The translations under genes were made by a program, and so were the position numbers. From Chytriomyces cf. hyalinus JEL632 (lineage: Eukaryota > Chytridiomycota > Chytridiomycetes > Chytridiales > Chytriomycetaceae): a stretch of 64,000 nucleotides of DNA. The notes beneath the pieces are model-generated. The model had not been told where the DNA came from, made no database searches, and saw only the letters and a program-made list of their open reading frames with translations. The stretch spans positions 333,736 to 397,735 of the forward strand of contig JAIWWG010000024.1 in the NCBI GenBank assembly GCA_025435555.1, given 5' to 3'. The first letter of the stretch is position 1. The number at the start of each line of letters is the position of its first letter. Positions 18,689 to 59,140 of the stretch are shown one piece after another.

Positions 18689-20114
18689 ATGTTCCAACTG
18701 CGACTGAACGTGATCGCACGCAGCAACTGCGCTGTGACGACACGCTGTGTCAAACGAATCAACTTTGTGCGCGGCGATGCTTCAAAAGCAGCCACGACGA
18801 CTCAAGAACAACACAAACAGTCCTCGGACGTCTGGGCCTCAGAGCATCTGCAGCACATTCTCCAGCACTTTGACGCTCCAATCAGATTCGCCGCCGGTTA
18901 CGGATCAGGCGTGCTCAAGCAGGACGGGTACGGCCTCAACCCGAACGTTAAGGTACCTCATTGCGACTCATGCATTCTCTGACTAAGCGGGTTTAAACGC
19001 ATACAGCCGCCGATGGTGGATCTCATCTTTGGAGTGACGCATCCCGAGCACTGGCATTCGCTCAACTTGCGCCAGAACCCGTCGCATTATTCGTTCGTGT
19101 CGGCACTTGGCGCGAAATCTGTGACGGCTCTGCAGGAAAAGTGGGGAGCTTCCATGTACTTTAATCCGGACGTTCTGATTGGTGAACAGGTGTTGTCGTT
19201 TTTCGAAACGGAAAAGCGCGTTTTATTGAATGGGAAAAGCTGATCTTTTTTGCTCTGTCTCAGAGGATCAAATACGGCGTCATCTCAATGAAGCATTTGA
19301 TTCAAGATTTAAACGAATGGAACAACTTTTACGTGGCGGGTCGGTTTCAGAAACCTGTAAGATCAAAGAGAGGAGTATGGGAGAAAAAATGCAGCTTATG
19401 CAAAAAAAAACCCCATCTTTCGCAGATTCGAATTCTTCGAGGAGATTCCCGCGTGAAACTTTCCAACGACGAAAACTTGGCCAACGCGGTCCGCGTAGCG
19501 CTGCTCCTCCTGCCACCGCAATTCTCTGAATACCAGCTATACACCACCATTGTGGGTCTCTCGTATCTCGGCGACTTTCGAATGATTTTTGGGGAAAACC
19601 CGAAAAAGGTGGAAAATATTGTGAATGCGCAAGTAGGATATTTGCGGGTCTTGTATAAACCCGTGTTGAAGGATCTTTGCGATCATTTCGTTGCTGGGAT
19701 TGAGAGCGTTTCTGCTGGGGAAGAAGTGCAGGCGTTGGATGTGCAGAAGGTGGTGTTTTCGCAGAATATGGATGCTAAGTTGAGAGGTGCGTTGTTGTTT
19801 GAGCTTCCAAAGACAGTGCGGGATAAGGTTTTGGCGGCGTTTCATAAAAAGAGTCGTATGGACACTGTGGTGTCTGCATTGGATCTTTCTCAGAAAGCTG
19901 CTGCCTCAGATTCGATTCAAAGCATGGTCAAGCAGGGTGCGTTGATATTGTGCGGCCTTGGTTTTCAGGATGTTTAACCAGGTTTTGTTTCTTTTCAACA
20001 GCCATTGCAGAGACCGTGCGTGGGCCTGCACTGACGCAGTCGATCAAAGGACTCATTACAGCGGGGCCGACAAAGTCGTTTAGATACATTGGAGAAAAGC
20101 TGTCGAAGCGGTAG
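18689..20114 (+). CDS. TAM41: Mitochondrial CDP-diacylglycerol synthase TAM41
   Basis: Five exons (18689-18952, 19007-19189, 19264-19356, 19426-19936, 20002-20114) encode 387 aa. Diagnostic segments are FAAGYGSGVLKQDGY, MVDLIFGVTHPEHWHSLNL, MYFNPDV, KYGVISMKHLIQDL, LRGD and, near the C-terminus, QSIKGLITAGPTKSFRYI. The GYGSG and MVDLIFGV segments belong to the nucleotidyltransferase-like core. TAM41 makes CDP-diacylglycerol from phosphatidic acid and CTP on the matrix side of the inner membrane, feeding cardiolipin synthesis. The basic N-terminus rich in Arg, Ser and Thr fits a mitochondrial targeting peptide. Length is normal for the family. It is divergent from the flavin-reductase-like gene and lies 170 bp upstream of a transposon. 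Confidence 0.95.
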
Positions 20115-20275: not shown

Positions 20276-20284
20276 TTTTTCTTT
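20276..20284 (+). repeat. Left target-site duplication (9 bp)
   Basis: TTTTTCTTT directly precedes the left inverted repeat and is repeated exactly at 26086-26094 directly after the right one. Nine bases is the usual length for Mutator-superfamily insertions. Confidence 0.9.
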
Positions 20285-20489
20285 GGATTTAACTAAATGA
20301 CATCCATGGACGTCACTGTTATTCGACATCCAGGACGTCATTTAGCGGTAACACCCATGGACGTCATTTAGTGCCAGCTGTTAGATGGCATCCAGGGCTG
20401 AAAACACCACAAAACAATGGTTCCAACTGTAGAAGTGTTTGGTTGGAACGGTAACAGTGGCACATGTGAAATAAACGTTTGCTGTAATG
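20285..20489 (+). repeat. Left terminal inverted repeat of the MULE (205 bp)
   Basis: It starts GGATTTAACTAAATGACATC and is the reverse complement of 25881-26085. It contains three closely spaced related boxes, CCATGGACGTCA, CCAGGACGTCATTTAG and CCATGGACGTCATTTAG (about 20304, 20330 and 20355), which are candidate transposase-binding sites. Sequence homology stops sharply after GCTGTAATG. Confidence 0.95.
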
Positions 20490-21019
20490 CTGTCTGGTGA
20501 CTGCTGGGGAAATAATACAGTTTCTCACCGACTTATCATATGCCGCAAGCGTCGAAAGGTTGGTGAGGAGTTTGGCACGTTGACAATAAATCGGCTTGGT
20601 CTTTTTTTTAGTGAACGGAACACACAGCAAATTGATTCTAGAAAAATGCTGGAATCCCTCACAAAGGAAAACCTCATAAATCACCGGTGTTTGCTGGAGA
20701 GTGCTGAGGAGATTGTCAGGGAATTTCTGAACAGGCGTGATATAAAAACTGTATTTTAATTCCCACATCACTCCAACCACTCTCGCCGCAGCTGCTTCGA
20801 GTCAAAGTGCGCCGCGTGCATTGCACCACCCCCGACCGCAAACACCTGCGTCCCGACTTGTCCCGAGACAGCCTCCTGCATCCCGGCTGTTCCGACCGAG
20901 GTGGGTGGAGGGAGTGATCGATCTGTCTGTTTTTTTGGAAGTTTTTGTGCATGGAAATTACAAGACCTTTTTGAATCAAAAATTCAGCAAGAGAAGCACG
21001 TTTATTTAACAAAGGTCGG
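20490..21019. other. Transposon interior 3' of the transposase gene, with a GC-richer coding-like patch
   Basis: Between the left repeat and the stop codon of the transposase. AATAAA on the minus strand near 21005 can serve as the transposase polyadenylation signal. From about 20768 to 20930 base composition becomes GC-rich, and the minus strand holds a short open frame (ATG at 20881, 37 codons, stop at 20768) containing GQVGTQVFAVGGGAMHAAHF. It resembles the last exon of a host gene carried inside the element. Evidence for expression is absent. Confidence 0.35.
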
Positions 21020-24000
21020 TCATTTTGAAGAAGCTCCTGAAGATGTCGATGGTGAAGAAAAGGCAGCGCTATCGGATGATGGCGGATTGGTGGATTTTTT
21101 TGCAGATTTCTTGCTGGCAGGGTTTTTTTTTGGTTCAGTTGATGATCGTTTGCGTTTTGTTGAAGGTCGACCTTTTCCAACCGTCGAAGGCGGCTCTTGG
21201 ATGTCGCGAATTCCAATAAACTGATTCAAAAGATTGTTCAGTGTTGAATTCATTTCTTTCTTGAATTCGTCTCCTTTTTTGCTGGCCAGTTCATAAATCT
21301 TGTTCACTGTTGCCATTGTATTCGCATGATGGATCCTGGAATCCTTTTCAGCTTTGGATATTGTTGAAGGGGGGGCAGGTGTACAATGATTCAACGCGCG
21401 ATGCAAAGGAAGCATAAGTAACTCAGGGCCGTGTGATGTCGGTGGCATCCATTCCAATTTTGGTTGGCGGGAAATTCCAACCCACTGCGATAGAGGTGCA
21501 TTGTTGAAATATTCTTCCTTCAGAAGCCTTGGGTTCACCAGGTCAATGCAGAATAATGCTTCGGTAAACTTTTGGAGTTGAACTGCCCAAAAATGTTCAC
21601 AGAGAATACCGCAAGAAAATTGCGACAGGTCAGAGCAAATGGATGTCCCGTTTTTAAGAAGTATCACATATTGACCAGCAGAATTCGTCCGCGCTTTCCA
21701 TGTCACGTGGTAAATGGACCGCACATTTTCGACGCCAATAGATCCCAACAGCGATTGGGTTGACAGAATTCGATTGGTGTGCCGATTGATTCCCGCTTCA
21801 GACAATGCAGCGCATCTATGATAGCTTGACAAGAAGCCATTTCCCGAGACGCCATTTCCAAACTCTTCCAAGCCGTCTTTTGCTGGTTCTGTGTGGTGGT
21901 CAACAACAATGTCCAAAATACTCTCTGCGAAAACTTCCTCCACCACCATCATAGTAGCTTGAACCATTTTTGCCTTGGTTTCATTCAAGCACCAGTCACT
22001 GGTAAAGTGAAGGAATTAATTATAAAGAATCGAGTTTGAAAGCCTTCTTACCTAGAGTAATTTTTCAAAACAGCAATGCACGGTGAAAAGGGAGATGTCA
22101 ATAGATTGACTTCTGCCGCAGAGCAACTTCGCGCAATTTGTTCTGCTGAAAATGCGCACTTGTCTTTGTAACTTTCCCGCAGCTGTTCAATTTTCTTTAT
22201 GTGATCTTCCAGCGTCAGAGCACCCCCTGAGCCTGCTTTCAGTAGGTGCTGGTATTTTTCTGCAGTGCCTGTTGATTGGGATCCCATTGTGAAGACTTGT
22301 GCACAGTAAGGGCGAACCCACTTTTCACGTGATCCAAACAGGCGACCAAGGTAATTCAGAGCATGATCACGATTAGAAGTATTGAGTATCAAAGAATCAA
22401 TGTGTTGAAGGAGTCTGTCCCATTCGTATTGGAAAGCCTGCTCAGTAGCCGAACTGTGCGCCAGCCATAAGATTTGAATTGCTTGTACGTAGCCTTGGCC
22501 AAGTCGTGATTTCAATCGCTTCGGCCAATTGACAATGCCAAGATGGTACATGCAGTACATGTGCCGGATTTGGTCCTTGAAACAATCTGAGTCCATCACA
22601 GAATCAATAGCAGGATCCTCATCCGTCAACAACACATCTGGGAGCATGCCGAAAAGGAATTTGCAGTTGGAAAACACCCAGTCAAATGTTTCGGTAGTTT
22701 CGTGAACACAGATCCCATGGAGAACAGGCTCTCCTCGATTTTCGTTTGTTCTAATCAGCATTGTCATTGATTTCACGTTCTTAACAGCTCCTTGAGTCAG
22801 GTCAAACCATGCCACATCATGGTACTTTTTGAATGTCTCTATTTGGGCAGTAGTGCACCACAACAGTGCAGTTATTTGCTGATGGCAATTCAGTTTCACG
22901 CGGTAGTGGTACCCACAAGAATCGAGATATTCCAGGCCGCGAGTAACTCCTAACTCATCTGCGCTACCCGGGTTGTCAGCTTGACGCACTTTTGCCACAA
23001 AGTTTGCAAAGTCCACGTAGGGGGATAATCTTGGAGGTGCAACACCCTGTTTAACAGCATCGTGCTTTTCAATGGATGCAACAATCTGCCTAATGGCAGC
23101 TGGTTTGTGTGTTTTTGCCAACGCTTCAATCACTGGCACGTGTTTTTCATCGATTCCACGCGAAATTCCGTATCGAGCAGTCCATTGCATACGTTCAATG
23201 GTGTGGTTATGCCCTTTTGACTCTGTGGCCATAACTGCCCGTAATGTTGTGGCTGATGGTTCTGTTATTTTCCAGTAACCGTTGGATTGAGGTTTTGACG
23301 CCGTAAAGATGAACTTGCAGCCACAAAGTTTTGAGGAAGACAGTCGACTTTTGCTGAGATCATTGGTGTGCTTAGATTTTCGATCACCAGCCTTGTGGCA
23401 GCTTAATCGAACTACAAAGGGAAAAGGATGGGGTCATCATTACTGGTGTTTTAAATGCACATGATGTATTACCTCGGCTGTTTTTATCCTTTCCGTAGAC
23501 CTTCATTGGCATTCCAAACTCAACCAAGAACAGTTCACAAAATGTTGTTGTATATTCTTGGTAGTCTTGCGATTTAAAGTTGACAATCCAATCAATAGGG
23601 TCCTCCGATGCAGTATTGAATCCATTTCCAGCGTTGGAGAAAGGTAGATCATCAATTTTGACACTTGTACCAGGTTTGCTGGGAGTTTGCTGAGTTGCAC
23701 GGAATTCGCCAGCCTCAGTTGATGGAGTACTGATTGCATCTTCATTCAGACTACTGAAGAATGTTGGTAGCATTGCTGTGTTTCGATGATTCTGTTAATG
23801 AGTGGTCAAATATGCGATTCCTTCAAACTACTGTGTTCACCTGGAGACAATGGATAAGGTGTTGGTGGTCGAAACGGTTGAAACGGTGTGTTTCTTGTGG
23901 ACACCACTGGAACATCATAGCTGCTTTCTTCTGCACCTGTGCTTGTTTCTTGCTTCTTGGATTTAGGCGTTTGTCCACTGGTAGCATCGTTGCAGTCACT

Positions 24001-25462
24001 GGTAGCATCGCTGCAGTTCTTTTGAAGGAGAACTTGCAGTAACGCAATCCGAACAGCCTCCGAGTCCTCAGCTGTATGCTTCACACAACCAAACAAAGCC
24101 ATTTCTTCAAGCGCAATGACAACACATGGTCCACAGTTGTAGCCATCTCTCTGATGTGGGAAATTGTGGAAACTAAAAGTGCTGTGACAGAAACAGTTCA
24201 AAGACAACACCAAAGAAGAAGCAAATCAAGGTGACTCACTGAAAAGCAGCGATACTAAATGGACATCCCATTTGTTGCGCAATTTTGTCTACAGCTTGTA
24301 TCCAGTTTTCAGGCAATTTCACTGAAGGACTTGTCTTCATCGGGTTGCCAAACAGAATCCTTTTGCATTTTAGATCCACAAAACCAGCAGTCCAATGGTT
24401 TCCATTTATATGTGTTGGAACCAATAGTTTTCCTTCTTCCCAATTGAACTGCTTCCCTGCTGTCGATAATATTGGGATGCTATCAACAGCCGCCTCATTT
24501 TGAATGGCGCACGTCATTGCCTCAACATCAGATCCTCTAAAACAAGTTCAAATACAGTATTGAATGTCGAAAACTATGATGAACCTCCTTAAAACCACTC
24601 ACTTGACCTCTGCGACATTGGTTAAGTTGCACGACTTGATCAAATACTGAAATCCTGCACTGATTGCTGTGTCGTTCAACCATGAATTCCCAACAACACT
24701 CATTATATCTTCGAACATTTGCGTGCCATGCTTCAATAGCTTCAATTGTTGCTTCACATTCGCAAGGGCATCACAGTTTTCGATAATGCTTGCACCGAAT
24801 GCCACCAGTCCCTTATTTTGCAGTCTCATTCTGTTCATATTCAGGTGTGTAGATTTACGGCTCTTTGATGCGGTGCTGTCCAACCATTTCAGTGCTTCGA
24901 TTGCCTTGTTTCGTTTTTTGCTCAAGCTGTGGTATTCAAGCTGTCCGCTCAGCTCTGCATCACTGAAAAGAAGTACGCACTCTTGTTTCCCCTGCTTTGG
25001 ATACAAAAGTGCTCCTGCACTCATTGGAATCTTGAGCTTTTTGGTTCCTTTCGTAAGCTTCCGTCTTGCTGCCGTAATCCAAGATTCGGGAAGTAGCCAG
25101 ATATGCTTCACACCGTCTGACAGAAAACTGCAGCTTTTAACTGGTACATAGTCGGTAGATTCAAGGGTAAATGGTAGCTGAACAACGCGTGTCATGTTCC
25201 AACTTGATTGATCTAGTGGCGCTCCAACGGTGGGAATATTTGCACATAGTAGCTGCTCCAGGCTGGCATTTCTGCTGAGTGCAACGGCTGTATGCTGAGA
25301 TAACTCGGCATCACTTTGATCGCAAAGACTATCCAGTTCCTTGTCAGAAGATACGAGGGATACGATTTGACAGCTTTCTTTGTTCGTGTTTTCCTTGTCA
25401 TTGTTCAAATTGCGCGCGCGATTCGATTGTTTCGTGTTCTCATTGCCATTGTCCGCATTCAT
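21020..25462 (-). CDS. Ulp1 protease - FAR1 zinc finger - MULE transposase - SWIM fusion protein
   Basis: Six exons (25462-24603, 24536-24240, 24172-23841, 23775-23473, 23411-22052, 21998-21020) join in phase to 1376 aa. The N-terminal 250 residues are of unknown function. A Ulp1/C48-like protease follows: WLNDTAISAGFQYL, a His in THINGNHW, FGNPM where an Asp is usual, and QRDGYNCGPC with the Cys. Next is a FAR1/WRKY-GCM1-type finger (LSCHKAGDRK, LCGCKF, KGHNHTIE). The MULE core follows with VAWFDLTQG and VLLTDEDPAI for two of the DDE residues and IRHMYCMYHLG. The C-terminus has a SWIM finger (SCGILCEHFW) and a Lys/Ser-rich tail. The start at 25462 is the first good ATG; an extra 5' exon near 25560-25715 is possible. 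One acceptor (24173 or 24182) is ambiguous. Confidence 0.85.
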
Positions 25463-25880
25463 GCCAAAGTTTGCCTGTGCCAAAGGCAGACGCGCTGTTG
25501 AAAAAGCAACATGTTTGAATGCATACAAATCAAATGAAAGTGCACTCAGTAAGGTGGGCGCTTACAAGCAACAGTGGCAGTTGTTGTCCTTGGCACAAAC
25601 GTCTTGTCGGATCCATTGCCGAAAAGCGACCTTCAAACCAGTTGCCATCAGTACGTTGTTGGCAGGAGTATAAATATAAATGAATAACGCAGTCTGCTGT
25701 GGACTGACCTGACATTTTGACGCATGCGAGAGAACGCGCCTTTCCGAAATTTTTGATTCAATAACCAAGCAAAGAGAAAACTTGGACGCGGTTTGCACCT
25801 TCTACTCAGCATGTGTAAAGAAGCAATTAGAATGACGTCGCAAACTGGGAGAGTGTGAAATTTAGTTTCTCAATACTGAC
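25463..25880. other. Transposon 5' region upstream of the transposase start
   Basis: This 418-bp stretch between the transposase ATG and the right inverted repeat should hold its promoter and 5' UTR. GTAAGC and GTCAGT donor-like sites on the minus strand and a CAACAG acceptor just before the coding exon suggest a spliced leader, but no upstream ATG exon fits the phase cleanly. Confidence 0.35.
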
Positions 25881-26085
25881 CATTACAGCAAACGTTTATT
25901 TCACATGTGCCACTGTTACCGTTCCAACCAAACACTTCTACAGTTGGAACCATTGTTTTGTGGTGTTTTCAGCCCTGGATGCCATCTAACAGCTGGCACT
26001 AAATGACGTCCATGGGTGTTACCGCTAAATGACGTCCTGGATGTCGAATAACAGTGACGTCCATGGATGTCATTTAGTTAAATCC
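25881..26085 (-). repeat. Right terminal inverted repeat of the MULE (205 bp)
   Basis: It is the exact reverse complement of 20285-20489 as far as can be read by eye and ends in GTTAAATCC. It drives outward toward the adjacent kinase gene. Confidence 0.95.
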
Positions 26086-26094
26086 TTTTTCTTT
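26086..26094 (+). repeat. Right target-site duplication (9 bp)
   Basis: TTTTTCTTT, identical to 20276-20284. It lies 38 bp upstream of the next start codon. Confidence 0.9.
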
Positions 26095-33259: not shown

Positions 33260-36200
33260 CTACTGCGCGAGAGTGTGCGAGCTGTCCGACGCGAGGATCG
33301 TGGATGCGTCGCTGCTTGGATCACTCGCGTCTTTTTCGTTGCCCAGTTCATGTTTGCTGTCATCAGCTTGAGCATCTGAAATACAACTCTTTCTTAGTCA
33401 ACGCATACACTGGTTGTTATCGTAGAGAAGTCACCTGAATGCCCATTCTCGGTTTTATGAGCTTCCACTGCATCTTGCGAAGGTTCACTCTTCTCGAAGT
33501 TGACGGCATCGGATGCATCAGGTTCATGGCTGCCTGTTTCGGCGGAATCGCCTTCGTGTTGGGGGGGGCTGGGTTCTTCTCGATCATCTAGTAAATTGAG
33601 ATTGCCTTGGGAATGATGAATTTCGTTTGTATCCTCGGCAGTGGCAGGAGTAGTTTCTTGTTGCTGCACTTCGTTTTGAACATCAGCTTCTTGTTGGTGC
33701 GAGTTTTCAACACGGAGCGATGAGTTCAACATATGTGCCGTGCTCGCGCGCGACTGAGCCAGCGATGTTCGAAGCGAAGTTGATCGAGACCCCGGACCTG
33801 ACGGGAAATGATTCTCGTTCAAGTTCAGTTTCTTGACCGATCCCATATCTACGGCCGTGTCCGGTTTGACAGTGGCAACTTGCGAGTCTGTGTTTACGTT
33901 GAAGATGATGTTGATTTCTCGGTCGGCGGACTCGGGTGAGTCGGAGCCGTGCACGGCGTTGGTGGAACCGTCTGTTCCGAATTTAGCCCGGATTGAACAT
34001 GGCGCTGTTTCGCGAGCCGTTTCACTGTTTGTTGGGCCTGCGTTTGGAGCGAGTTTAATTGGATGAAACAAAACCGGGGCATCAGATGGTCTTACCAGTC
34101 AGGTTTCTCCATGCCTTTACACCAGACGGACCTTCCAGAACCATGGCATAAATGGGTGCGCTGCTCATCCATGTCGTCAAATCTTCAAAGAAAGGTTTGC
34201 CTTCGTGTTCTCGGTAGAATTCCTGTGCCATGCCCAATGTCATGTGCAGTTCCTTTTCATTCAGGATCGTTAGTTTGCATTGCTTCAATTTGCTGATAAT
34301 ATGGTTCTTGTGAGTGGGATGTGCGTCTGGCTTTATCAGCGCCAGAGTTGTTTGCGACGGCGGCATGGAGGATACTTCACCGCCGAATACGAGGTTGATT
34401 TCGCGGTCGGCTGAGATGGTGCTGTCGGATCCATGCACTGCGTTCAAGGAACCGTCAGTGCCAAAGAGTGCGCGAATACTGCTCAGAGTGCCATTAGAAT
34501 AGCCATGAATGACAATGTACTTAAACAATCACACCTTGTTGGGCTTTCCTCCCGCGCTTTTTCACTGTTTGTGGGTCCTGCCAAATTTCGCCATGCCTGA
34601 ACTCCGCTAGTCTTTTCCAGAATCAAAGCATAAATCGGAGCGCTGCTCATCCACCCCGTCAGTTGACCGTAAAACTCCTTCTCTGCGTGCTCCTTGTAAA
34701 ACTCTTGCGCCATCTCGAGGCTGAACTGAATCTCCCTCTGCTCAACAATCAAGAAACCGTCTTCAACGATTCTATCGACAATTGCTTGCTTCTTGTCGGG
34801 GTATGCATCCGGTTTTATCAAAGCCAGCGTCCGTTCAACAAATGGAGGCATATCTTCCATCCACAGACGCAAGTCTTCCTCAGCGGCTTTCGCGGCATTG
34901 TCCATACGCTGGTGCTCCAATATCGCGAAACTCATGCGCATGCTGGAACTAACAAGTTGTGCTTTTGAACCGGCACGAGAAGCTTGTAGACTTCCAATGG
35001 GAGATTTGAAGATGGAAGAACGAGACGCGTTAGTGTTCAAGTAGTGTGGGAAGAATGATTGGAGTTGTTGGATTGCCAAGTCGACGGTTTGTGAGCCGTG
35101 GACTCCGTTGGATGAGATTGTTAGACCGAACTGAGCGCGTAAGCTTTACGATAGAACACGTAATGAAGAATGTTAGGATATGTGATTTGTGTAGTTTTTG
35201 AAAGGGAAGCGCTACTTACGACATGGGGCAAGTTTTGCGGGCCAATTCTGGGTCGCTGGGGCCCAGCATTTCCGTCCAACCTTCAATTGCGTTTTCTCCT
35301 TTGATCATGAGACAAAGCACCGGAGCGCTGTTGGCGATTCTTGCGTTAATAACAGTCAGAAATCCATCAAAGCACTCACTTCATCAGCGACTGCACCGAC
35401 TCTTCAAACAACGGAGTCTCCAAAAACTCGAGACTAAGTTCCTGCGCGCGCTCCACATTCAACAGAAACTCGTCCTTCTTGGCAACCTTGTAGCCACGTG
35501 ATACAATGCGCGAGATGATGTCGTCGACGCGGAGCATGGCTTCTGGCTTGATGACGGCCAGCGTTTTTTGGAGGAGACCGTTGCTTTGAGAGGATTTTGG
35601 GTTTGTGGGCGGCGTGTATTCTAGTGTATTGAATTGGGTTTCTGTGCCAAAGATGAAGGCAAGTTCGCGGGCCGCGCTGACTGGGCCGTCTGATGCGTGG
35701 AATGAGTTCATGAGGCGGTCGTTTCCATACATTCCGCGTAGTCTTTTTTGTTTTTTTGCGGGTTTCAGTAGTCTGTATCTTCGATTGGCTTGAAGTCAAA
35801 AATGTTGCTTACGATTTCGGGGCATCAAGTTTCGCGTCCTTTGGATCTCTTGGACCCACTATCTGGCGCCATTCTTCAATAACGTTTTCTTTCGAAAGTT
35901 CAAACGCCAGAACAGGGGCGCTGTTTTTGGCGTGAGTGTGAGTATAACGACATCGAAAAAGAATTCAGTTAGTCACCATGATATATAATCCACAAGTCGG
36001 TCAAAGTAGTCCATCCCAGCAGCCTCCCTGTACAATTCTTGGGCTTGTTCCTTTGTCAGCCAAATCTTTTTCACCTGCAACACGTGTATCCGGTGCCGGT
36101 AGAGCGACGACACAACTTCCTCCAGGATGCTTGGCATCATTGCATCTGGTTTCAGCATGGCAAATGTTTGTTCATGGTTGGATCTGTCAATTTCCATGTC

Positions 36201-37099
36201 TGCTTGGGCTTGTGCTGATGTTTCGGAGGTAGATGCACGGCGTGTGTCCAGCTGGGACTCGCGGCGGGAAGATGGGTTCGATTTGCATGCTTGCGAAGTC
36301 TCTTGGACTATCGGTTCCGGCTCCGGTGGATTTAAAAAGTCAATAATGGGACGCGTTAATTCGTCAGGAGCGCACTGTTTAGGAGCCCGTATGAGATTGC
36401 AACTCTTGGAGATGCGTGTTCGGAAGTCAATAAACTTTTCACCTGTACGTGCGGTAACCCTTGCTCTTCCAGCTGCATTTGTTCTTTGATGGTTCGTTCG
36501 ACGAAAGGCGCATTCGCCCCACGCACGACTCGGATAAGCAGCTTTCCCTGGATATTCAACCAGCCAAGATTTCCGTAAACGAAGAGGTTACGCGCGCTGT
36601 TGGAGAAAATTGCCTTACAAAAAAGAAGGCAAACACTGGACAAGATTGATTCTGAATGTGTTCAAAACAGGAAATGTTGTCGGTGATGGCCTGTTCCGTG
36701 ATTGAGTGACGAGCGCGTTTATTCAAAAGCATGCGAAACAGAGAGCTCACTTGCACAAAGGATATATTTTCGCCGTAGTCGACTTTATATCTGCGTAGAA
36801 TCGTTTGCATTGCTTCGCATGGTCCGGCAAACTTGGCTGTGAACCGAACCGCAATTGTCTGATCAGCATGGATGCATATAAAGAGGTTCGAACGCGTTAC
36901 CGAAAACATCGATTACTAAAGTGTAGTTGTTGTTGTTGGGAATGGATGTTGTTTGAAGGCGTTAAGTAGACGCGTTGTTTGACCAGCTCTGCGCAACGTA
37001 CGCACCGATAAGTCCCGGTTTGCCGATCATGGAAAGAAACTCGGCGTTGTTGTGGGCCGCGGCCATGACCGGAGCAACTTCAACTTTCTTGGTTGCCAT
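33260..37099 (-). CDS. Thioredoxin + 4 NDPK-domain protein (NME8/TXNDC3-like), paralog A
   Basis: Thirteen exons (37099-37006, 36915-36901, 36836-36751, 36690-36619, 36547-36443, 36374-35977, 35920-35813, 35742-35380, 35327-35220, 35143-34535, 34478-34096, 34037-33435, 33375-33260) give 1019 aa. An N-terminal thioredoxin fold (KPGLIVIDVFAKFAGPCEAM) keeps only the second Cys of CxxC. Four NDPK domains follow, each with a KPDA/KPEA strand and a His in NSFHASDG, NGVHGSQT or NAVHGSDS. In animals, thioredoxin-NDPK proteins of this class (usually three NDPK domains) belong to axonemal dynein arms. The last 200 residues are polar and acidic. Intron positions match paralog B directly upstream, showing a tandem gene duplication. 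Confidence 0.85.
36901..36915 (-). other. 15-nt microexon in thioredoxin-NDPK paralog A
   Basis: Fifteen bases encoding V-I-D-V-F across split codons of the thioredoxin beta strand, flanked by CTTTAG and GTAACG. A microexon of the same length and phase occurs in paralog B at 41772-41786. Confidence 0.8.
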
Positions 37100-37204
37100 G
37101 TTTGTGATGTTTGTTTGATCAGAAAATTTGCTAATTTTTTATTGAAAGCTTGAACAACCAAAACTCAATGTCACCAACTACTACATCGCAGTAAGAAGAT
37201 TAAG

Positions 37205-40200
37205 CTACGCGTCTGCGGCTGGAGAGGCATCTGCTGGCATGACTTGCGCAGAGGCCGCGCGTGATCCCGCTGTCGACACGACTTTGGATGCTACTTTCGA
37301 AGCAACTTTCGAAGACGGTTTGGTGTTTGCTGTATGAGGTGAACCCGTGTTTTCGGCAACGGCTGATGCCGATGCAATTCGAGATGCGGCCTGAGAAACT
37401 TCAGTCTTTGAAGCAACCTTTGAAACAACTTTTGAACCACTGCTGGATTTGGCCTCACTGGCGCCTACTCCAGCAGCTGCAGATGTAATTCTGGTTCCGG
37501 GATTTGATATCGCAGCTTGCGAAGCTACTTTTGAAACTCCCTTTGACTTTGTGGCATTGGCGTCATGTCCATCAGTTGACTTTGCTGCGGACATTACTCT
37601 TGACGCGGAATTTGAAACTGCTTTTGATGCGGGAATCGACTTTACATTGGATTCATTGTGAGAGGCGCCATCTGCAACTGGAGAGACTTCATCACCAAAA
37701 ACAACGTGAATTTCGCGTGCAGCAGAGGTTGGCGAGTCGGACCCGTGTACTGCGTTCAGTGATCCGTCAGTTCCAAACATTGCACGTAAAGAGTATGCGG
37801 CTGTCTCCCGTGCCGTGTTGCTGTTTGTGGGTCCTGATTTATATTCATTGTAAGCCTGTTAGAATGGATTTTCAAAAGGAAAAACGCGTAAATCAAACCT
37901 GCAAGATTTCGCCACGATTTCACTCCGGCTTCCTTTTCCAACACCATGGCATAGATAGGAGCACTGCTCATCCAAGTGGTCAACTCCTCATAGAACCCTT
38001 TACCCTCATGTTCATGGTAAAACTCTTGTGCCTTCTCTTTAGTGAATTGGACTTCACTTTCCTTGATAATTTTGAAGCCGTCTAACTTGATTTTGGCAAT
38101 GATTTCATCCTTCTTGGTCGGGTACACATCTGGCTTGATGAGTGCCAATGTGCGCTGCCTCTCTGGAACAGAAGAGACTTCGGCTCCAAATACAATCCCG
38201 ATTTCTCGCGTTGCAGAGGCTGGGGAGTCTGATCCATGCACAGCATTGTGTGTGCCGTCGGTACCGAACGTGGCTCGGACACTGAAAACGACCAAAGTCA
38301 GTTCATCCAAGTTCAAAAAATTTGACTGCAGAGGATCTCACCTCGATGGGCTCTCTTCCCTGGCCTTGTTGCTGTTGGTCGGACCCGCCAGATATCTCCA
38401 GGCTTTGATTCCTTCATTCTTTTCCAGCACCATCGCGTAGATGGGTCCGCTACTCATCCACGTGGTCAATTCACCATAGAAACCTTTTTCTGCGTGTTCC
38501 TTGTAAAATTCTTGCGCCATCTGCATGTCGAATTGAACCTCGTGCTCTTCAATCACAGTGAACCCATCCGCACGAATCATCTCCATAATCGCATCCTTCT
38601 TGTCCGGGTACACATCGGGTTTGATCAACGCCAACGTTCGCTGCACTGGTGGCGGAAGCTCTACAGGTAATGCGGCTACACTAGCGACTTTACCCATACC
38701 AGAATGGGCTTGCGGCTTAGCTTCACTGGTACGAGGACTCGAAGTTGCTTGGGGAGACACATCATCTCCGAAAACAACGTGGATTTCACGGGCGGCGGAG
38801 GTTGGTGAGTCGGAACCGTGCACAGCGTTCAGTGATCCGTCAGTACCGAACATTGCACGTAAAGAGTATGCGGCTGTCTCCCGTGCCGTGCTGCTGTTTG
38901 TGGGTCCTGATTTATATTCATTGTAAGCCTGTTAGAATGGATTTTCAAAAGGCAAAACGCGTAAATCAAACCTGCAAGATTTCGCCACGATTTCACTCCG
39001 GCTTCCTTTTCCAACACCATGGCATAGATAGGAGCACTGCTCATCCAAGTGGTCAACTCCTCATAGAACCCTTTACCCTCATGTTCATGGTAAAACTCTT
39101 GTGCCTTCTCTTTAGTGAATTGGACTTCACTCTCCTTGACAATCTTGAAGCCATCTAACTTGATTTTGGCAACAATTTCATCCTTTTTGGTGGGGTACAC
39201 ATCTGGCTTGATGAGTGCCAATGTGCGCTGCCTCTCTGGAACAGAAGAGACTTCGGCTCCAAATACAATCCCAATTTCTCGCGTTGCGGACGCTGGGGAG
39301 TCTGATCCGTGCACTGCATTGTGAGTGCCGTCGGTTCCAAAGGTGGCTCGGACACTGAAACCGTGCAACATCAGACAACTTACACTGAAAAAAAAACATG
39401 GAGTATGATGTCACCTCGATGGACTCTCTTCCCTGGCCTTGTTGCTGTTGGTCGGACCCGCCAGAGACCTCCAGGCTTTGATTCCTTCATTCTTTTCCAG
39501 CACCATCGCATAGATAGGTCCACTGCTCATCCAAGTTGTCAATTCACCATAGAAACCTTTTTCTGCGTGTTCCTTGTAAAATTCTTGCGCCATCTGCATG
39601 TCGAATTGAACCTCGCGCTCTTCAATCACCGTGAACCCATCCGCACGAATCATTTCCATAATCGCATCCTTCTTATCAGGGTACACATCCGGTTTGATCA
39701 ATGCCAACGTTCGTTGTACTGGTGGTGGAAGCTCTACAGCCACGTTTGCCGTGTTTGCCGCCTTCATTGCGTTACGCTGTGTTTCTAGCATGTCGACACT
39801 TGCGCGTAATGCTGAACTCGCAAGGTGTGCTTTGGATCCTGCGCGAGACGCTTGTAGACTTCCCATGGGAGTTTTAAAGATGGAAGTACGAGAAGCGCTT
39901 GTGTTCAAGTAGTGTGGGAAGAATGATTGTAATTGTTGGATTGCAACGTCCATGGTTTGGGATCCATGAACACCGTTTGTGGTGAGAGAGAGACCGTATT
40001 GAGCTCGGAGTCTGTGCCGATATTGTTAAAGAGGGTAGAACTATTTTTGCCAATGCATTTTTGGATAGATGGTGCAACTTACGACATGGGGAAAAGTTTT
40101 CTGGCGTCTTCAGGGTCGCTTGGTCCGAGCATTTCCATCCACCCTTCAATCACGTTTTCACCTTTCAGCATCAGCGATAGAACCGGGCCACTTATAAAAC

Positions 40201-42292
40201 AAAGGGTAAAAATAAGTGTCACTTCAGAAGAAAACCCAAAGGAATTACCTCATAAGCGCCTGCACAGATTCCTCAAACATTGGCGTTTCCAAAAACTCAA
40301 CACTCAATTCCTGCGCTCTTTCGACATTAATAAGTCCCTCATCCTTTTTAGCCACTTGGTATCCTCTCGCAACAATTCGAGCGATAATCTGGTCAATTTT
40401 TTCCATCGCCATCGCTTCTGGCTTAATGACGGCTAAAGTTTTTTGTGGCAGACCATTGCTTTGAGAGGATTTAGGGCTCGCTGGTGGGGTGAATTCCATC
40501 ACGTTGAATGGAGTTTCACTATTGAAAATGTATGCAAGCTCCCTGGCTGCGCTCACTGGGCCGTCAGAAGCATGGAATGAGTTCATCAGGCGGTCTTGAC
40601 CGTAGAGCCCGCGAAGGCTAGTTTTTATGGGGGGAGATGATTGAGTTGTTTGCAAAGACTTTGGTGTGCTTCAAAGAAACTCTTTTACGATTTGGGGGCG
40701 TCGGATCTCGCGTCTTTGGGGTCTCGTGGGCCAACAACCTCTCTCCACGCGTCTATTCCGCCATCTTTGGCAAGATCCAAAGCAAGAACTGGAGCGCTGC
40801 GAAGCATATAAAAAAAGTTGAGATTTTGAAGGAATTTAAGAAAATATTCGCACCATGTGACGTAGTCAACCAATCGGTCAAAGTAGTCTTTTCCTTCCGC
40901 TTCCTTGTAAAGCTCAATGGCTTGCTCTCGGTTGAGCCAGAGTTTTTTGACTTGCATCACGTCAAAACGATGATGATGAAGCAACGCAATCACATTTTCA
41001 AGGATACTTGGCATCATAGCATCAGGTTTCAACAATGCTAGTGTATGTTCTGCAGTTGTAGGGTCGTTCAAAGGCGTAGTTGTTGGGATATTGAACGAGG
41101 ATTCGCTGACAGAAGCGCGACTGGGAGCGTTACGAACAACTGAGGGGATCGGTTCTTTCGAAAACTTTGATTTGTCGTCGCTTTCTTGAGGGGCAGTATC
41201 TTGAAGAGGCGCGTCTGGCGCCAAAAGAGATGCGATCGGTTGAGTGGTCGAATCCAGCATAATCTGTTGAGATTACCATTTGCTCAGTTTTCATTGGTGT
41301 CAACAAAGACCAGTGTTTTACCTGACGATGCGGTTCGTTCTTGTTGTGCAAATCGATTTGTTCCTTGATTGTCCTTTCAATAAGAGGGGCATTGGCGCCG
41401 CGAATAATTTTGACCAGGATTCGATTCTGTGTGCATGGCTTTGGTTCAGAACGAGGGATTTTCATGCAAATGAAACTCACGTAAAAAAACATGAACGTCG
41501 GGCAAGAGTGATTTCTAAAGCTTTCTAAACACGAAATATAATCCGAAACTCCCTGATGGACCCAGTAATCGCGAGTTAATATTTATGGTAGATTTATGGG
41601 AAGAATAAACAGGCGGGCCTGCACCTGAACAAAGGCAATCTTGTCGCCATTTTCTTGCTTCAATCTTTTGAAAATCGCGGCCATGGGTTCGCAGGGCCCC
41701 GCAAATTTGGCTGGAACAAAAAAGAGAGTTCAATATAAAAATCCAGTGTTCAGATGTGTGGGATCGCTCACAGTAAACGTCCATGACTGCAAAATTACGC
41801 GAAAATTAGAATGTGCGAGTTTGTAAAAAGTAAAGGAAAAGGGACAGGTGATTTACCTCTGAGTTGATTTGGTTTTGAAAGAAGGGCAACGAACTCTTCA
41901 TCGCTTGAAGCGAGCACGGGCGCAGCAGGCTCGCCTTTCTTTCCAAACTCAGCCATTTGAGATGTGTGTGTAGTAGTAGAAGGTAGCTGGAAACCAGGAG
42001 GAAAGCAACAGTTGTCGACGGTGTGAGATTCAAGGTTGGCTTCAGGTTGCTGGTGCTGGATGTCCGGTGCAACGGCGTCTGATCGAAGCAGATAGTATAC
42101 TAGGAGCGCAGTGAGTGCTGGAACAAGTACGGTAAGGGTCCTGGCGGCAAAGAGGCAGTTTCCGAGGGTGCGAAAAAAGCCAGTTCTTGGAAGGGATTTT
42201 CGTGTCGATCCCGAAGCATCGAACGCATTTCGTTGCGTGCTTTGTTTGTGTGGCTGAGCAGTGGCAGCAACGGACTTGCGACTGCGACGCAT
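37205..42292 (-). CDS. Thioredoxin + 6 NDPK-domain protein (NME8/TXNDC3-like), paralog B
   Basis: Fourteen exons: (42292 or) 41956-41857, 41786-41772, 41710-41625, 41552-41481, 41426-41322, 41263-40854, 40796-40689, 40617-40249, 40190-40083, 40011-39415, 39354-38972, 38906-38342, 38281-37899, 37833-37205. From the ATG at 41956 the protein is 1309 aa. The thioredoxin domain reads VMDVYSKFAGPCEPM, with one Cys. Six NDPK domains follow, all with the active-site His (NSFHASDG, NGVHGSQT, NAVHGSDS). Domains 5-6 are a near copy of 3-4 from an internal tandem duplication. The C-terminal 150 residues repeat Ser-Lys-Val-Ala motifs. The frame is also open upstream to an ATG at 42292, which would add 112 residues with one membrane segment; this start is uncertain. 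Axonemal location is inferred from the family. Confidence 0.83.
37691..38666 (-). repeat. Internal tandem duplication, copy 2 (period 1072 bp)
   Basis: Aligns base for base with 38763-39738 at a constant offset of 1072 bp. It covers the 3' part of exon 12, exon 13 and the first part of exon 14 of paralog B. Exons and the 65-bp intron are almost identical; the other intron has diverged. Confidence 0.9.
38763..39738 (-). repeat. Internal tandem duplication, copy 1 (period 1072 bp)
   Basis: Partner of 37691-38666. Similarity stops on one side after GGAAGCTCTACAG and on the other near the AAAACAACGTG segment, so the duplicated unit is about one NDPK pair. Confidence 0.9.
41772..41786 (-). other. 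15-nt microexon in thioredoxin-NDPK paralog B
   Basis: Fifteen bases (TC ATG GAC GTT TAC T) between TTTTGCAG and GTGAGC, encoding the thioredoxin strand V-M-D-V-Y. Same size and phase as in paralog A. Confidence 0.82.
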
Positions 42293-44776: not shown

Positions 44777-47700
44777 TTAGTCTGAATCATCCTCATAGGC
44801 TTGAGCGCTGAATAAATCATCTGCAGAAATAGGCACTTTGCCTGCTTCCTCCTCCTCCTCCTCACCACCAGCACCGTAATCGTCAAAATCAAAGTCGTCT
44901 GCATCCTTCCCATCCAACCCCTTTTCGGCTCCATAATCTCCCAAATCAAAGTCGGATCCTTCCATACTTGCGTCGGCAAGCAGTTTATCAACATGAGTTT
45001 CGTCTTCCACAGAGTCCACCTCTTCGTTTGCATCTTCACCAAAATCTGAGAATTTCTCTTGAAGCAGGTCGTCAAGCTTTGATGACGCTTCTAGCTCCTC
45101 GACTTCCTCCTGGTGGTTTCGTTTTCATTAGACTGAACTCGTTTAACCAATCAAAAGGTGGGAAATGTACCACTTCGTTAGCAGCGTCGAATGCCAAACT
45201 TTCTGAGGAACTTGTAGTCTCGCCCCCGTACAACTCAGTTTGGTCAAAGTTGTCTTCGTTCCTGTCAGATGAATCGTCGCCGTAAATCGCAGCTTCGAAA
45301 TCTTTCACAGGATCAGAAGGTTCAAGGTCCAACTCTGAATCTCCTAATGAAACGGAGTTTCATGTTAAAAAAAAACTGAATGGTTCATGACATTTTAAAA
45401 ACAATACAAACCAGGCAAAGCCATGCTTCCAAACTCTGGTGACAAGGAGTATTTTGAAAGATCGGCGCTGAGTGCAGTGGTTTCTGCCAAATCGATTTGC
45501 TCTGTTGATCGAAAACGAGGTTAGAATGCAGTTATGTGAAGGCCAAGTTGCGATTTCGTACCATCCGAGAAACCAGCTGATGAAAACATATCCTCGTACA
45601 GTGCAGATGCTTGCAGGGAATTCAGCACTGAGTCCCGCGACTTCATCAAGTCAGAGCCATCAGCAGCTTGATTGACGGTTTCCTCAAGTTTTGGTTCCAG
45701 AAACACGTCCAACTCATATGAAGCTTGTTTTGAGGTATCTGCCTCAACAGTGTAGGGTTGTTCAATCACAATTTCTTCATCGGAAGGAAGCGCTCCCAAC
45801 TCTGCAATAACTTCAGATTCTGATAGCAGGCTTGTCGTCTCTTCCACAGTTATTTCTTGGGCGGATGAGATTTCAATGCCCAACTCTGTTAGAATGTCCT
45901 CCTCAGCCAAAGAATCGGAGAACTCTTGAATCACGGTCTCTGCGATCGCCTTTGATTCTGTTTCACTGATCTTTGACAGAATTGGTACAGATGGAGCAGC
46001 ATATGTCGCGGTCGCGAACACATCGTCTGCACCAGGCGCATTGGCCGTAAGAGGGGTATGATTGACTGCGCAATAACATTCGTTTAGAACAAGCCGTTTT
46101 CGGATGACATGAAAAGTATGAGCAACGAGTTTACCTTCTCTGGCGGTAACTGGGATCTTGGCGTCCAATCCCTTCACGGCTTCAGCATCTTTGATGTTCG
46201 ATGAGATAGGCGCACTCTCAGGATTCAACACCCTGATAGCCTCGTAGTGTCCCTCCAATGCAAGTACGTGACCGATGGAATAACAACTCTCGGAGTAACC
46301 GGCCGATTCATGCTGACACTGGTAAGAATAACATGATGAGCCTGGAGTCACAGCGGCAAGCTTTTCTGGAGCATCCACAACGCTTAATGCAGGGGTAATC
46401 AAAGTTTCTGGACTTTTTTGGATGGCGATTTGTTTGACCACCTCCAGGGTTGGATTACGAACAATGATTGGGTTGAGTTCATCAGTGTCTTCTTGCAAGT
46501 GACTGATGGAGTAGCAGGATGCCCCGCCAGTTTCGATTCCGTTCCTACATGAGTAAGAATAGCAACCTGATTCGTGGTTGCCATCCATGATGATGACGCC
46601 TTCAATAATAACTGCCTTCAAACTTGCTGGTGGGATCGAACTTGAGTCGCTACTGAGGATGTCCAAAGATTTGTGTGTTCCTTCTTGAACCACAGAGCGG
46701 ATTTCTGCTTCATCATGGATCGCGATGTCAGAAATTTGACGCGTTGTCACAGCGTGGAAATCGTCAACGGCATTCACTTTGCTTTGAAGAGAGAACAGGT
46801 CTTCCTGGTCAAGAGTAGAAATCTCTTCTTCCTCCAGAGCAATAATCTCGTTTTCCTCAGGAGCGACATCAGCAGCAATGATCTCGTCGTCCTCAGGAGC
46901 GGTTAACTCGTCGACTTCAGAAACAGCAATCTCTTCGTCCTCAGGAGCAATAACCTCGTCCTCCTCAGGAGCAATAATCTCGTCCTCCTTAGGAGCGGTA
47001 ATCTCTTCGTCTTCAGGAGCAGCAATCTCTTCTTCCTCAGGAGCAATAATCTCAGCCTCGACAGGAGCAGCAGCAATTCTATCCTCATCGAGAGAGGCAA
47101 TCTCTTTGCTTTCAGGAGTGTACATGTCTTCTTCTTCAGGAGCAGGAATCTCATCCTCGAAACGAGTAGATACCACATCGTCTTCAGGAGCGGTAATGTC
47201 GTTGTCCTCAGCGGTAATCTCGTCGTCCTCAGGAGTAGTAATCTCGTCATCTTCAGGAACAGTTATCTCATCCTCGGCAGGATCAGCAGTAGCGGAAATG
47301 TCTTTGTCTTCAGGCACAGCAATGTCTTCCTCGAGAGTAGTTGGAATCTCCTCGTCAACAGTAGCTGCCATCACCTTGTTTTCAGTAACAGTGCTTTCAA
47401 AGTCAGCACCGTCATTAATGCTGAAAGTAGGCGTAACAATAATAATCGGGGACACTGGGTTTGGTTCAACGTCGCTCTCTTCTTTGGGTGGCAGCTCTTG
47501 ATTTTCGCCGGTCTCTTCATCAAGCTCGTATTCTCCTTCACTTTCTTCTTGTACAGATCCCATTGACTTTGCGAGAGCATCAGACGAGAAACTGTTGGTG
47601 TCATCAAGAATACGCGGTGTTGAGTTTGCACTGAACAGCAACGACGCTCTTGTAAAGCCGGCTTGGCCAGGGGCCATGGACGTCCTTTCACCCTTCACCA

Positions 47701-57442: not shown

Positions 57443-59140
57443 ATGGAGGCAATGAACCTGCCCGCACAGCATGACAGGGTTGATTCTGGGATCCAGCTTG
57501 TAACGACCCCGGATAAGGATGAAGGTGAATTCGTTCAAGTCCTTCCCGACGCGCACGGTCTGCTTCCTTTGATTGAGAAAGCCTGCGCGATGACGACCGG
57601 TCTGCCCAAACCATGTTGCGCAGCGGGGCAACTGGAACTGGTGCTCAAGAAATGCGACGAAGCGAGACCGTACATTGCCGTTTCGCACGTGTGGGGTACT
57701 CAATGGGATGCCGGTGAATGGACCGACCCAAGCCTCAAGAAAGCAATTCCAATCACAACTCGTGTCAAAATTGAAAAGCTTTGGATCAACGAAATACCCT
57801 CCAGCGCAAACAAGAACAACTTGAGCAAGCTAGCTTTCCTCAGCACTCTGCTCAACGCGAGTTCTGAGAACGTCTGGTTCGACTGGAAGGACAACAATCA
57901 ACATGCCTCGGCCATGATGCACGAGCAAGTCAGGCACTTACCTGAGGTGTATCGGAATGCCACTCTCACGGTCATCATCCATACCTGCAGCAGCTGGCGC
58001 GCTGCTTTGAAGAAATCAATGTCTGCAACGTCCCCCGAGGATATCGCGAAAATATTCAATGAGGCTTTGAATCGATCGCGGTACCGAAGCCGCGTATGGA
58101 CCCTTCAAGAAGAAACCCTTAGTCGAACCAGATGCCATGTCTTGGCGGACGGAACCGGGCCATACATATGCTTCAGCCGACAAACATTCGCGCAAGTCAT
58201 TAAAAATCCCGAAGCGATGGCAGGATGGGACAAGAGCCCTGAATTTTCTGATCTTTTGGATACTTTGTTCGGCAAGCTTTCCGCCGAGAAAATGTCGATG
58301 GCAGAGGCTGAGAAGACGTTCATTCAACCAGCAACTCTTGCGAACAGGTCGGCTTCTGTTTCCAAAGATTTGTATTTTGCCATTGCGCTTCCTTGCGGGA
58401 TCGATTTGGGACTATCATACGACCAAAGTGACCGAGAAGTTCTGCTGGTTTGGGCAAAGTATTTGCTCGAAAGAAACTACCTCACAACGTGTTGGAGAGG
58501 GACCTCGTCAAGATATCATGAAATGATTGTCAATCCCAACAGTGACGATGCCGAAGAGTTGGCCGAGTCGACCTTTTGGTCACCATTCCGAATCCCTCCC
58601 GCTGAACATCCAGAAGACTCAACTTTCGTCATTGAATCATTTCAATCCGCCGCTAGACTCACGTATGATAATCTGAGCACGTGGAATCACGGTGGACTTT
58701 ATGGCGGCGAACTTACTGTGGATGGCTGTCTCTGTTTATCAGTGCATCCTTTGGAAAGACTGGCAGCTACCACACAAATTGGATGGTTGGATAATGGAGG
58801 GATAATCAAGGTTTATGCGCAATGGGTTGAATTTTCACCGTTCAGATGGGGACCTGGCGCTGGAAACTCCGAACCGAACGAAACAACCACAACTGTGACC
58901 TTCAAAGTGTTTGGATATCCTCTGGAAATCACAGTGAACGAAGCCTATAGCGAAAAGTTGTTTGCAGCCATCTCCTTTCACAAGGGCTCCCGCCAGCTCC
59001 TGCTGGGTCTGAAAACAGAACGGGTCGGATACATTCAGCTCTTGTGTGCCACACGTCAAGACTACCTTGGCTTGGCCCAAGACACCTTTGCATTCCAGGC
59101 TTGGGATGCGATGAACAGAACTAAAATTTTTCTCTGTTGA
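57443..59140 (+). CDS. HET-domain (heterokaryon incompatibility-like) protein
   Basis: One uninterrupted exon gives 565 aa. The N-terminal half has the HET pattern: PYIAVSHVWGTQW, then NVWFDWKDNNQ in place of the usual W-x-D-x-x-C-I-x-Q, then LPEVYRNATLTVI and RVWTLQEE. HET domains are TIR-like modules found in fungal cell-death and non-self recognition proteins. The C-terminal half has no recognised domain, and no membrane segment is present. The absence of introns contrasts with nearly all neighbours and is typical of lineage-specific, fast-evolving fungal families. The Cys usually found in the second HET motif is replaced. A role in incompatibility in this organism is inferred only from the domain. 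Confidence 0.8.
   Translation: MEAMNLPAQHDRVDSGIQLVTTPDKDEGEFVQVLPDAHGLLPLIEKACAMTTGLPKPCCAAGQLELVLKKCDEARPYIAVSHVWGTQWDAGEWTDPSLKKAIPITTRVKIEKLWINEIPSSANKNNLSKLAFLSTLLNASSENVWFDWKDNNQHASAMMHEQVRHLPEVYRNATLTVIIHTCSSWRAALKKSMSATSPEDIAKIFNEALNRSRYRSRVWTLQEETLSRTRCHVLADGTGPYICFSRQTFAQVIKNPEAMAGWDKSPEFSDLLDTLFGKLSAEKMSMAEAEKTFIQPATLANRSASVSKDLYFAIALPCGIDLGLSYDQSDREVLLVWAKYLLERNYLTTCWRGTSSRYHEMIVNPNSDDAEELAESTFWSPFRIPPAEHPEDSTFVIESFQSAARLTYDNLSTWNHGGLYGGELTVDGCLCLSVHPLERLAATTQIGWLDNGGIIKVYAQWVEFSPFRWGPGAGNSEPNETTTTVTFKVFGYPLEITVNEAYSEKLFAAISFHKGSRQLLLGLKTERVGYIQLLCATRQDYLGLAQDTFAFQAWDAMNRTKIFLC

Follow-up and report, generated by a model that had tools for sequence, protein, structure and literature searches.

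We consider it probable that the element occupying positions 20285–26085 of the 64-kb stretch of DNA analysed here (hereafter the window), with its gene on the minus strand (Table 1), is an intact and apparently autonomous cut-and-paste Mutator-like element (MULE), whose predicted protease would remove SUMO-like modifiers at the DNA to which the protein is bound. The assignment to the MULEs and the intactness of the full-length element, both put forward in the original prediction made from the nucleotide sequence, were supported by the analysis described below.

Table 1. Positions of the features of the element in the window
Feature	Position	Strand	Description
Left target site duplication (TSD)	20276..20284	.	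TTTTTCTTT; 9 bp, perfect
Left terminal inverted repeat (TIR)	20285..20489	+	205 bp; three GGACGTCA motifs; letter-by-letter comparison of arms
Exon 6	21020..21998	-	SWIM-like motif; basic, Ser/Pro-rich tail
Exon 5	22052..23411	-	Bulk of FAR1-type match; putative MULE DDE core
Exon 4	23473..23775	-	Linker; start of FAR1-type region; in-frame ATG at 23773
Intron 3	23776..23840	-	65 nt, GTGAAC...ACACAG; fusion junction
Exon 3	23841..24172	-	Ulp1 Gln393 and Cys399, then linker
Exon 2	24240..24536	-	Ulp1 His334 and Asn351
Exon 1	24603..25462	-	N-terminal region, then start of Ulp1 domain (WLND at 261)
Right TIR	25881..26085	-	205 bp, identical to left; letter-by-letter comparison
Right TSD	26086..26094	.	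TTTTTCTTT; 9 bp, perfect

Comparison of the two arms demonstrated that 205 of 205 nucleotides are complementary (100%), and with a match at every base a chance inverted repeat was ruled out. The repeats without visible difference and the 9-bp duplication that had been predicted were thus both borne out. Long TIRs are among the features by which MULEs are recognized, and the TSD lies within their range of 8–10 bp, typically 9 bp. The chance that two random 9-mers from the window are identical was calculated to be 2.4e-5, although the TSD evidence is weaker than this value suggests, since the pyrimidine-rich TTTTTCTTT occurs seven times in the window. In the left TIR, GGACGTCA lies at 20308, 20333 and 20359, with spacings of 25 and 26 bp. 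A Tam41 gene and a uridine-kinase-like gene flank the insertion site, a gap of approximately 0.2 kb. The element shares no repeat of at least 60 nt with the remainder of the window, and scanning the window for Rfam families and tRNAs yielded no matches. As for the recent mobility that had been read from the identical ends, none of the 205 paired positions shows a detectable change since insertion; however, when a DNA transposon inserts, neither TIR is made as a copy of the other, unlike the case of LTRs, and thus the identity of the TIRs is no clean clock.

Six minus-strand exons joined in phase to give exactly 1376 aa with neither a stop nor a frameshift, as had been predicted. All five introns are of the GT-AG type and 53–67 nt in length, similar to the seven candidate introns of 56–74 nt found elsewhere in the window (scan range, 45–110 nt). 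For intron 2, a second in-phase acceptor at 24182 (CACAG) would add 3 aa to the protein.

To assign domains, the whole 1376-aa protein was searched against Pfam profiles (E up to 1), and isolated segments were searched separately. The four modules of the original prediction were retained in the order Ulp1, FAR1, MULE and SWIM, with the Ulp1 match clear and the others less so. Namely, Peptidase_C48 (Ulp1) was detected at E 2.8e-7 (31 bits; cut-off, 20.7), and the MULE family (PF10551) at E 7.7e-6, with 26.7 bits, just below the curated cut-off of 27.6; the ZSWIM1-3 RNaseH-like family was likewise found below its cut-off (E 1.7e-5). The FAR1 (WRKY-GCM1) finger was absent from the whole-protein search (E up to 1) and was matched weakly, below cut-off, from the isolated segment alone (E 0.016; aa 590–648, crossing the 597/598 junction made by intron 4), with C602, C627 or C629, H665 and H667 as its candidate residues by eye. 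No Pfam model of SWIM matched the whole protein or the isolated segment (E up to 10), and this module is a motif reading, CSDLSQFSCGILCEH at aa 1170–1186, in which the second Cys of the CxC is absent. A DUF261 match in the isolated SWIM segment (E 0.078) was taken as chance. Within the putative DDE core, D801 and D861, with 59 residues between them, and a C/H motif at 881–887 were recognized by eye, and none of the eight Glu candidates listed was assigned as the catalytic one. An AlphaFold2 model of exon 5 alone had a mean pLDDT of 37.8, and no claim made herein rests on it. In the N-terminal region, matches to DUF6767 (E 0.05) and to an unnamed phage family (E 0.25) were both regarded as chance. 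A SIM-like stretch, IVSLVSSDKELDS at aa 33–45, readable in two overlapping registers, is only a hint, because shuffled sequences do as well (54 of 500 when the whole protein was shuffled, and 13 of 500 when the N-terminal 245 aa alone were).

The protease is predicted to use His334, Asn351 and Cys399, together with Gln393 at the position of the oxyanion Gln. Among PDB entries, yeast Ulp1 matched the protease best (E 1.1e-5), and Asn351 stands where this enzyme has the catalytic Asp of its His-Asp-Cys triad. ASFV pS273R, the triad of which is His-Asn-Cys, also has Asn at the aligned position (alignment E 0.026).

In searches for relatives, viral contigs gave two stretches fitting the pattern of the exon-5 protein and four for the Ulp1 domain, none of which was confirmed, and no match to the exact 21-base TIR motif. 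Similarly, none of 20 stretches from bacterial and archaeal genomes was confirmed, tblastn against plasmids gave no match, and neither the PDB (exon-5 protein) nor NCBIfam returned any entry. These misses say little about eukaryotes, since the collections consist of viral, bacterial, archaeal or plasmid records.

The best gene model fuses the protease to the N-terminal side of the transposase, as had been predicted, yet the fusion hangs on the splicing of the 65-nt intron 3, the donor of which (GTGAAC) is weak. If this intron were retained, the protease frame (507 aa) would stop at 23808–23806 and a transposase frame (879 aa) would have its own ATG at 23773, the two lying 32 nt apart. We think it doubtful that intron 3 is unspliced or only sometimes spliced and that two separate proteins are made. 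The lack of G at +5 in the donor, the location of the join in a low-complexity linker between domains, and the occurrence of the ULP of plant MULEs as a frame of its own in the available portion of PMC2528002 are all consistent with this arrangement. On the other hand, 32 nt from stop to ATG is too short for a terminator and a promoter, the length of intron 3 fits those of the other four, and intron 4, located within the FAR1 match, likewise has no G at +5 (GTAATA). Furthermore, among 11 in-phase GT-AG joins of 40–120 nt at the intron-3 region, CAG|GTGAAC...ACACAG is in our judgement the most intron-like.

The TIRs, the TSD, the open six-exon frame and the Ulp1 and MULE family matches are direct readings. 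In the mechanism that we propose, the zinc fingers of the single protein would recognize the GGACGTCA motifs repeated within the TIRs, the DDE core would cut the DNA, and insertion would take place with a 9-bp stagger. At the bound DNA, we infer, the N-terminal cysteine protease (His-Asn-Cys with Gln) would strip SUMO or a similar modifier from host silencing or repair factors or from the transposase itself, and transposition would thereby be favoured. The identical TIRs, the TSD, the 1376 open codons, the Peptidase_C48 and MULE matches, the yeast Ulp1 match in the PDB, the FAR1 match (E 0.016) where such a finger would be expected, the kept His, Gln and Cys, the intron sizes, and the recurrence of Ulp1 and OTU domains in unrelated transposons all favour this reading; counted against it were the MULE score just under and the FAR1 score well under cut-off, the unmatched SWIM, the unassigned catalytic Glu, the Asn in place of the yeast Ulp1 Asp, the weak intron-3 donor and the low exon-5 pLDDT. 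An inert protease, hitchhiking with no part in transposition, seems unlikely to us. Captured host sequence is frequent in MULEs, the ULP-bearing families of grapevine are not monophyletic according to the available part of PMC2528002, and the Asn substitution would also fit a dead enzyme; nevertheless, the protease frame is open over three exons with its His, Gln and Cys kept, pS273R shares the Asn, and Ulp1 or OTU domains recur in several unrelated transposon groups, as far as the accessible text of PMC2836005 extends. The original prediction further held that the protease may process its own transposase. That the protease precedes the transposase within a single frame would suit such a role. 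Viral relatives cut polyproteins, which was also counted in favour. The sole Gly-Gly in the 1376 aa, however, sits at 993–994, inside the transposase part, with none in the linker between the protease and FAR1; self-cleavage that frees the transposase was thus left unsupported and rejected as the main role, and we regard it as very improbable. A more elaborate version of our preferred mechanism appears quite unlikely as a whole: the zinc fingers would bring the protease to both the element ends and the target, where erasure of SUMO-like silencing in cis would license transposition, and retention of intron 3 would act as a switch, determining whether free protease or fusion protein is made.

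Several known systems resemble the element, as judged from the available portions of the sources. Ulp1 in Mutator elements has been reported from plants, hydra and lancelet (PMC2836005), and a legend in Bao et al. (2010) describes an alignment of Ulp1 domains in Mutator transposases (PMC2836005), so that the one-protein fusion itself seems to be known. Ulp1, described in the original prediction as a passenger in some plant elements, is thus not only a passenger elsewhere; its presence in KDZ elements, also stated there, was not confirmed, the words Ulp1 and KDZ occurring together in none of the 20 literature matches listed out of 43. The hydra and lancelet elements (Repbase; PMC2836005) belong to the same superfamily, with animal hosts as against a probable fungus here. 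An Ulp1-type protease is likewise carried by plant MULEs (Kaonashi/KIU in Arabidopsis, melon, rice, grapevine), and by some Jittery-like families (PMC2528002, PMC13317346). The grapevine ULP, which may point either way, is located downstream of the transposase frame, whereas the protease of the present element precedes the transposase in a shared frame; in melon and rice both orientations also occur (PMC2528002). The Arabidopsis KI-MULEs have no TIRs and carry the ULP reverse to the transposase gene (PMC2528002, PMC13317346), in contrast to the in-frame protease and TIRs found here. In Ginger1, Ulp1 or OTU is also fused to the transposase, but the latter is Gypsy-integrase-like and the protease C-terminal (PMC2836005).

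With regard to the transposase, some groups of MULEs have a FAR1 finger and many have a SWIM finger. FAR1 occurs in half of the members of a Hop sub-group (plants, oomycetes and fungi; TIRs of 30–220 bp), and plant Jittery has an N-terminal FAR1, a C-terminal SWIM or CCHC and TIRs of 39–292 bp (PMC6446971). The main text of this survey of 1631 elements mentions neither Ulp1/ULP, protease, peptidase, OTU nor chytrid; in the accessible part of its table, an ovarian tumour gene is listed for one element. The Muta elements of Aedes aegypti likewise have short subterminal repeats (10 of 12 long-TIR families) and TSDs of 8–9 bp, and the Muta5 gene, with three exons, is also intron-bearing; they differ in their transposases of 416–554 aa and in the FLYWCH finger that 13 of the 14 families carry, and no protease is mentioned for them in the portion of the source available (PMC5225508). 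The available portions of PMC12730594 and PMC6875170 contain no useful mention of Ulp1 or protease.

The pairing of Ulp1 with Mutator is itself already known from plants, hydra and lancelet, as far as the accessible text of PMC2836005 shows, which also notes the recurrence of the modifier-removing Ulp1 and OTU domains across unrelated transposons and has proposed a role in transposition. To the plants and two animals the present element adds a probable fungal host. A compact, seemingly intact element with the protease in frame means that a single protein could be used to test whether the protease activity plays a part in transposition.

The element was found to be bounded by terminal inverted repeats (TIRs) whose 205-bp arms were 100% complementary and, compared letter by letter, identical, in agreement with the original prediction of repeats without visible difference. 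This pair was the sole inverted repeat of at least 60 nt reported across the 64-kb window, and no direct repeats of at least 60 nt were detected between the element and the rest of the window. As was also predicted, a 9-bp target site duplication (TSD), TTTTTCTTT, directly abuts both borders. Two random 9-mers from the window would be identical with a probability of 2.4e-5; the TSD word is of low complexity and occurs 7 times in the window, and thus the TSD alone constitutes good, not overwhelming, evidence. Taken together, the long TIRs and the TSD are the signature of a Mutator-like element (MULE).

Between the two TIRs and between the two TSD copies, zero changes were observed over 428 bases, which caps the divergence since insertion at roughly 0.7% per base, provided that the TIRs were identical at that time. 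Since TIRs, unlike LTRs, are not copied from each other upon insertion, this bound is softer than an LTR-based one, and the identity itself may be a product of assembly collapse. Each TIR carries three GGACGTCA motifs (those of the left arm being spaced 25 and 26 bp), and the word was absent from the remainder of the window on either strand (6 of 6 copies in the TIRs). MULEs are known for short subterminal repeats, which a passage of PMC5225508 describes for 10 of 12 long-TIR families of Aedes aegypti, and we infer that the motifs are putative transposase-binding sites. As single-stranded DNA, 194 of 200 shuffled versions folded less well than the TIR itself (z -2.3), probably because of an internal inverted repeat of the TIR (40-nt arms, 75%).

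As summarized in the table, the element encodes a gene on the minus strand, the six exons of which join in phase, as anticipated, into exactly 1376 aa. All five introns (66, 67, 65, 61, and 53 nt) are of the GT...AG type, and neither stops nor frameshifts were found in the joined frame. An intron scan of the window (45–110 nt, bridging reading frames, with G at +5 required) returned ten rows, namely, introns 1, 2, and 5 of the element and 7 candidates outside it, all on the minus strand and 56–74 nt long; introns 3 and 4 were unreturnable because the scan demanded G at +5. For intron 2, the scan picked an alternative acceptor at 24182, likewise in phase, which adds 3 aa.

Features of the element and its surroundings (window coordinates)
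Feature	Position	Strand	Remarks
Tam41-like gene	stop 20112-20114	+	last exon; Pfam E 3.5e-54; stop read from sequence
TSD copies	20276-20284; 26086-26094		
MULE	20285-26085		
TIR arms	20285-20489; 25881-26085		205 bp each
GGACGTCA motifs, left TIR	20308; 20333; 20359		
94-aa frame	20475-20756	+	overlaps left TIR; antisense to 3' side of gene
Stretch between left TIR and gene	20780-20920		by eye, higher GC than remaining element
Six-exon gene	25462-21020	-	1376 aa
Intron 3	23840-23776	-	65 nt
Uridine-kinase-like gene (PRK)	likely ATG 26133	+	Pfam E 6.3e-9
Duplicated stretches	34527-40624		three, ~4.87 kb apart, 75-76% identity; 300-nt repeats nearby at 94%
Repeat array	46761-47300		24-bp spacing; codes acidic repeat within 902-aa frame
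HET domain protein	57443-59140	+	Pfam E 8e-7

Support for the four modules originally proposed for this protein differed. With the whole protein, Pfam Peptidase_C48 (the Ulp1 protease) matched aa 319–412 above its cut-off (E 2.8e-7, 31 bits vs 20.7), whereas the two transposase matches, MULE (aa 813–888, E 7.7e-6, 26.7 bits vs 27.6) and ZSWIM1-3 RNaseH-like (aa 761–846, E 1.7e-5, 25.2 bits vs 27.2), fell slightly under theirs. FAR1 was not matched by the whole protein, and the isolated segment 545–705 gave a match at aa 590–648 well below the cut-off (E 0.016, 16.3 bits vs 28.1). No SWIM model matched; ICSDLSQFSCGILCEH at aa 1171–1186 resembles the SWIM pattern without the second Cys of CxC. 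Reading by eye placed the ligands of the fingers, two catalytic Asp residues (the first two, 801 and 861), and a C/H motif at 881–887; no residue was assigned as the catalytic Glu. Exon 5 alone gave no confident fold with AlphaFold2 (mean pLDDT 37.8).

The closest solved structure to the protease was yeast Ulp1 (1euv, E 1.1e-5), in alignment with which the WLND motif, His, Gln, and Cys were retained and Asn351 occupied the position of the Asp. Next among the solved structures came African swine fever virus pS273R (E 0.026), which has Asn at the aligned position; the triad of this viral protease is described as His-Asn-Cys. From the retained His, Gln, and Cys together with Asn351, the protease therefore looks catalytically competent, of the Asn type. 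The suggestion that it processes its own transposase was not upheld: self-processing is unlikely because the sole Gly-Gly, at 993–994 in exon 5, lies past the Pfam MULE match.

Whether protease and transposase form one protein hinges on the removal of intron 3. Were it retained, the protease frame would stop after 507 aa (stop 23808–23806), and an 879-aa transposase frame would follow with its own ATG at 23773, 32 nt past the stop. This two-protein reading is favored by the weak donor of intron 3 and by its position in a linker, where homology is of no help. On the other hand, 32 nt is too short for a second promoter, the length of intron 3 fits the remaining introns, and intron 4, which is spanned by the FAR1 match, equally lacks G at +5. 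Among the 11 in-phase GT-AG joins of 40–120 nt at this stretch, CAG/GTGAAC...ACACAG (65 nt) was in our judgement the best fit to the other introns. We thus regard the N-terminal fusion as probable, albeit with these two reservations.

The element lies between the Tam41-like and uridine-kinase-like genes, in what would have been an intergenic gap of ~208 bp (170 left and 38 right, one TSD copy counted), and thus just upstream of a gene, where Mutator elements often reside. The uridine-kinase-like frame starts with GASSGKKEV, which looks like an altered P-loop. GC content of the element's coding sequence was 44.9% (third positions 42.7%) vs 49.3% (49.9%) in nine open frames picked elsewhere in the window, and CpG observed/expected was 0.75 in the element vs 1.00 in the rest; these values are compatible with past methylation or foreign origin. 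The 94-aa frame gave a weak 5MP1/2 HEAT domain match under the cut-off (Pfam E 0.0039) and 0 matches against PDB, and is perhaps a captured host fragment, or chance. Farther along the window, the duplicated stretches suggest tandemly duplicated genes, and the HET domain, typical of fungi, points to a fungal host, perhaps a chytrid.

The pairing of Ulp1 with Mutator elements is already known: it has been published for hydra, lancelet, Arabidopsis, maize, rice, and melon, and a figure legend mentions Ulp1 in Mutator transposases (both in passages of PMC2836005). In grapevine elements, ULP lies downstream of the transposase (excerpt of PMC2528002), whereas the protease here is predicted to be N-terminal. 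In a survey of 1631 MULEs, FAR1 and SWIM are listed for groups from fungi and plants, and the words Ulp1, ULP, protease, peptidase, OTU, and chytrid are absent from its main text (PMC6446971). No fungal Ulp1-MULE fusion was recognised among the literature matches listed, mostly outside subscription journals. As far as these searches go, the N-terminal protease arrangement with FAR1 in a probably fungal host is a new variation on this known pairing.

The original observation was confirmed, and its interpretation partly supported. By analogy with its families, the DDE core would drive cut-and-paste transposition. As precedents for the protease, Bao and colleagues suggested that Ulp1 and OTU domains take an active part, e.g., in repair activation (passage of PMC2836005); the VANC proteins of Arabidopsis VANDAL elements bind repeated element motifs and erase silencing marks (excerpt of PMC10398659), and some VANC genes carry a Ulp1 domain described as of unknown function (excerpt of PMC13317346). 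Less securely than cut-and-paste, the protease may act where the DNA is bound, stripping SUMO or a related modifier either from silencing or repair factors of the host or from the transposase itself.
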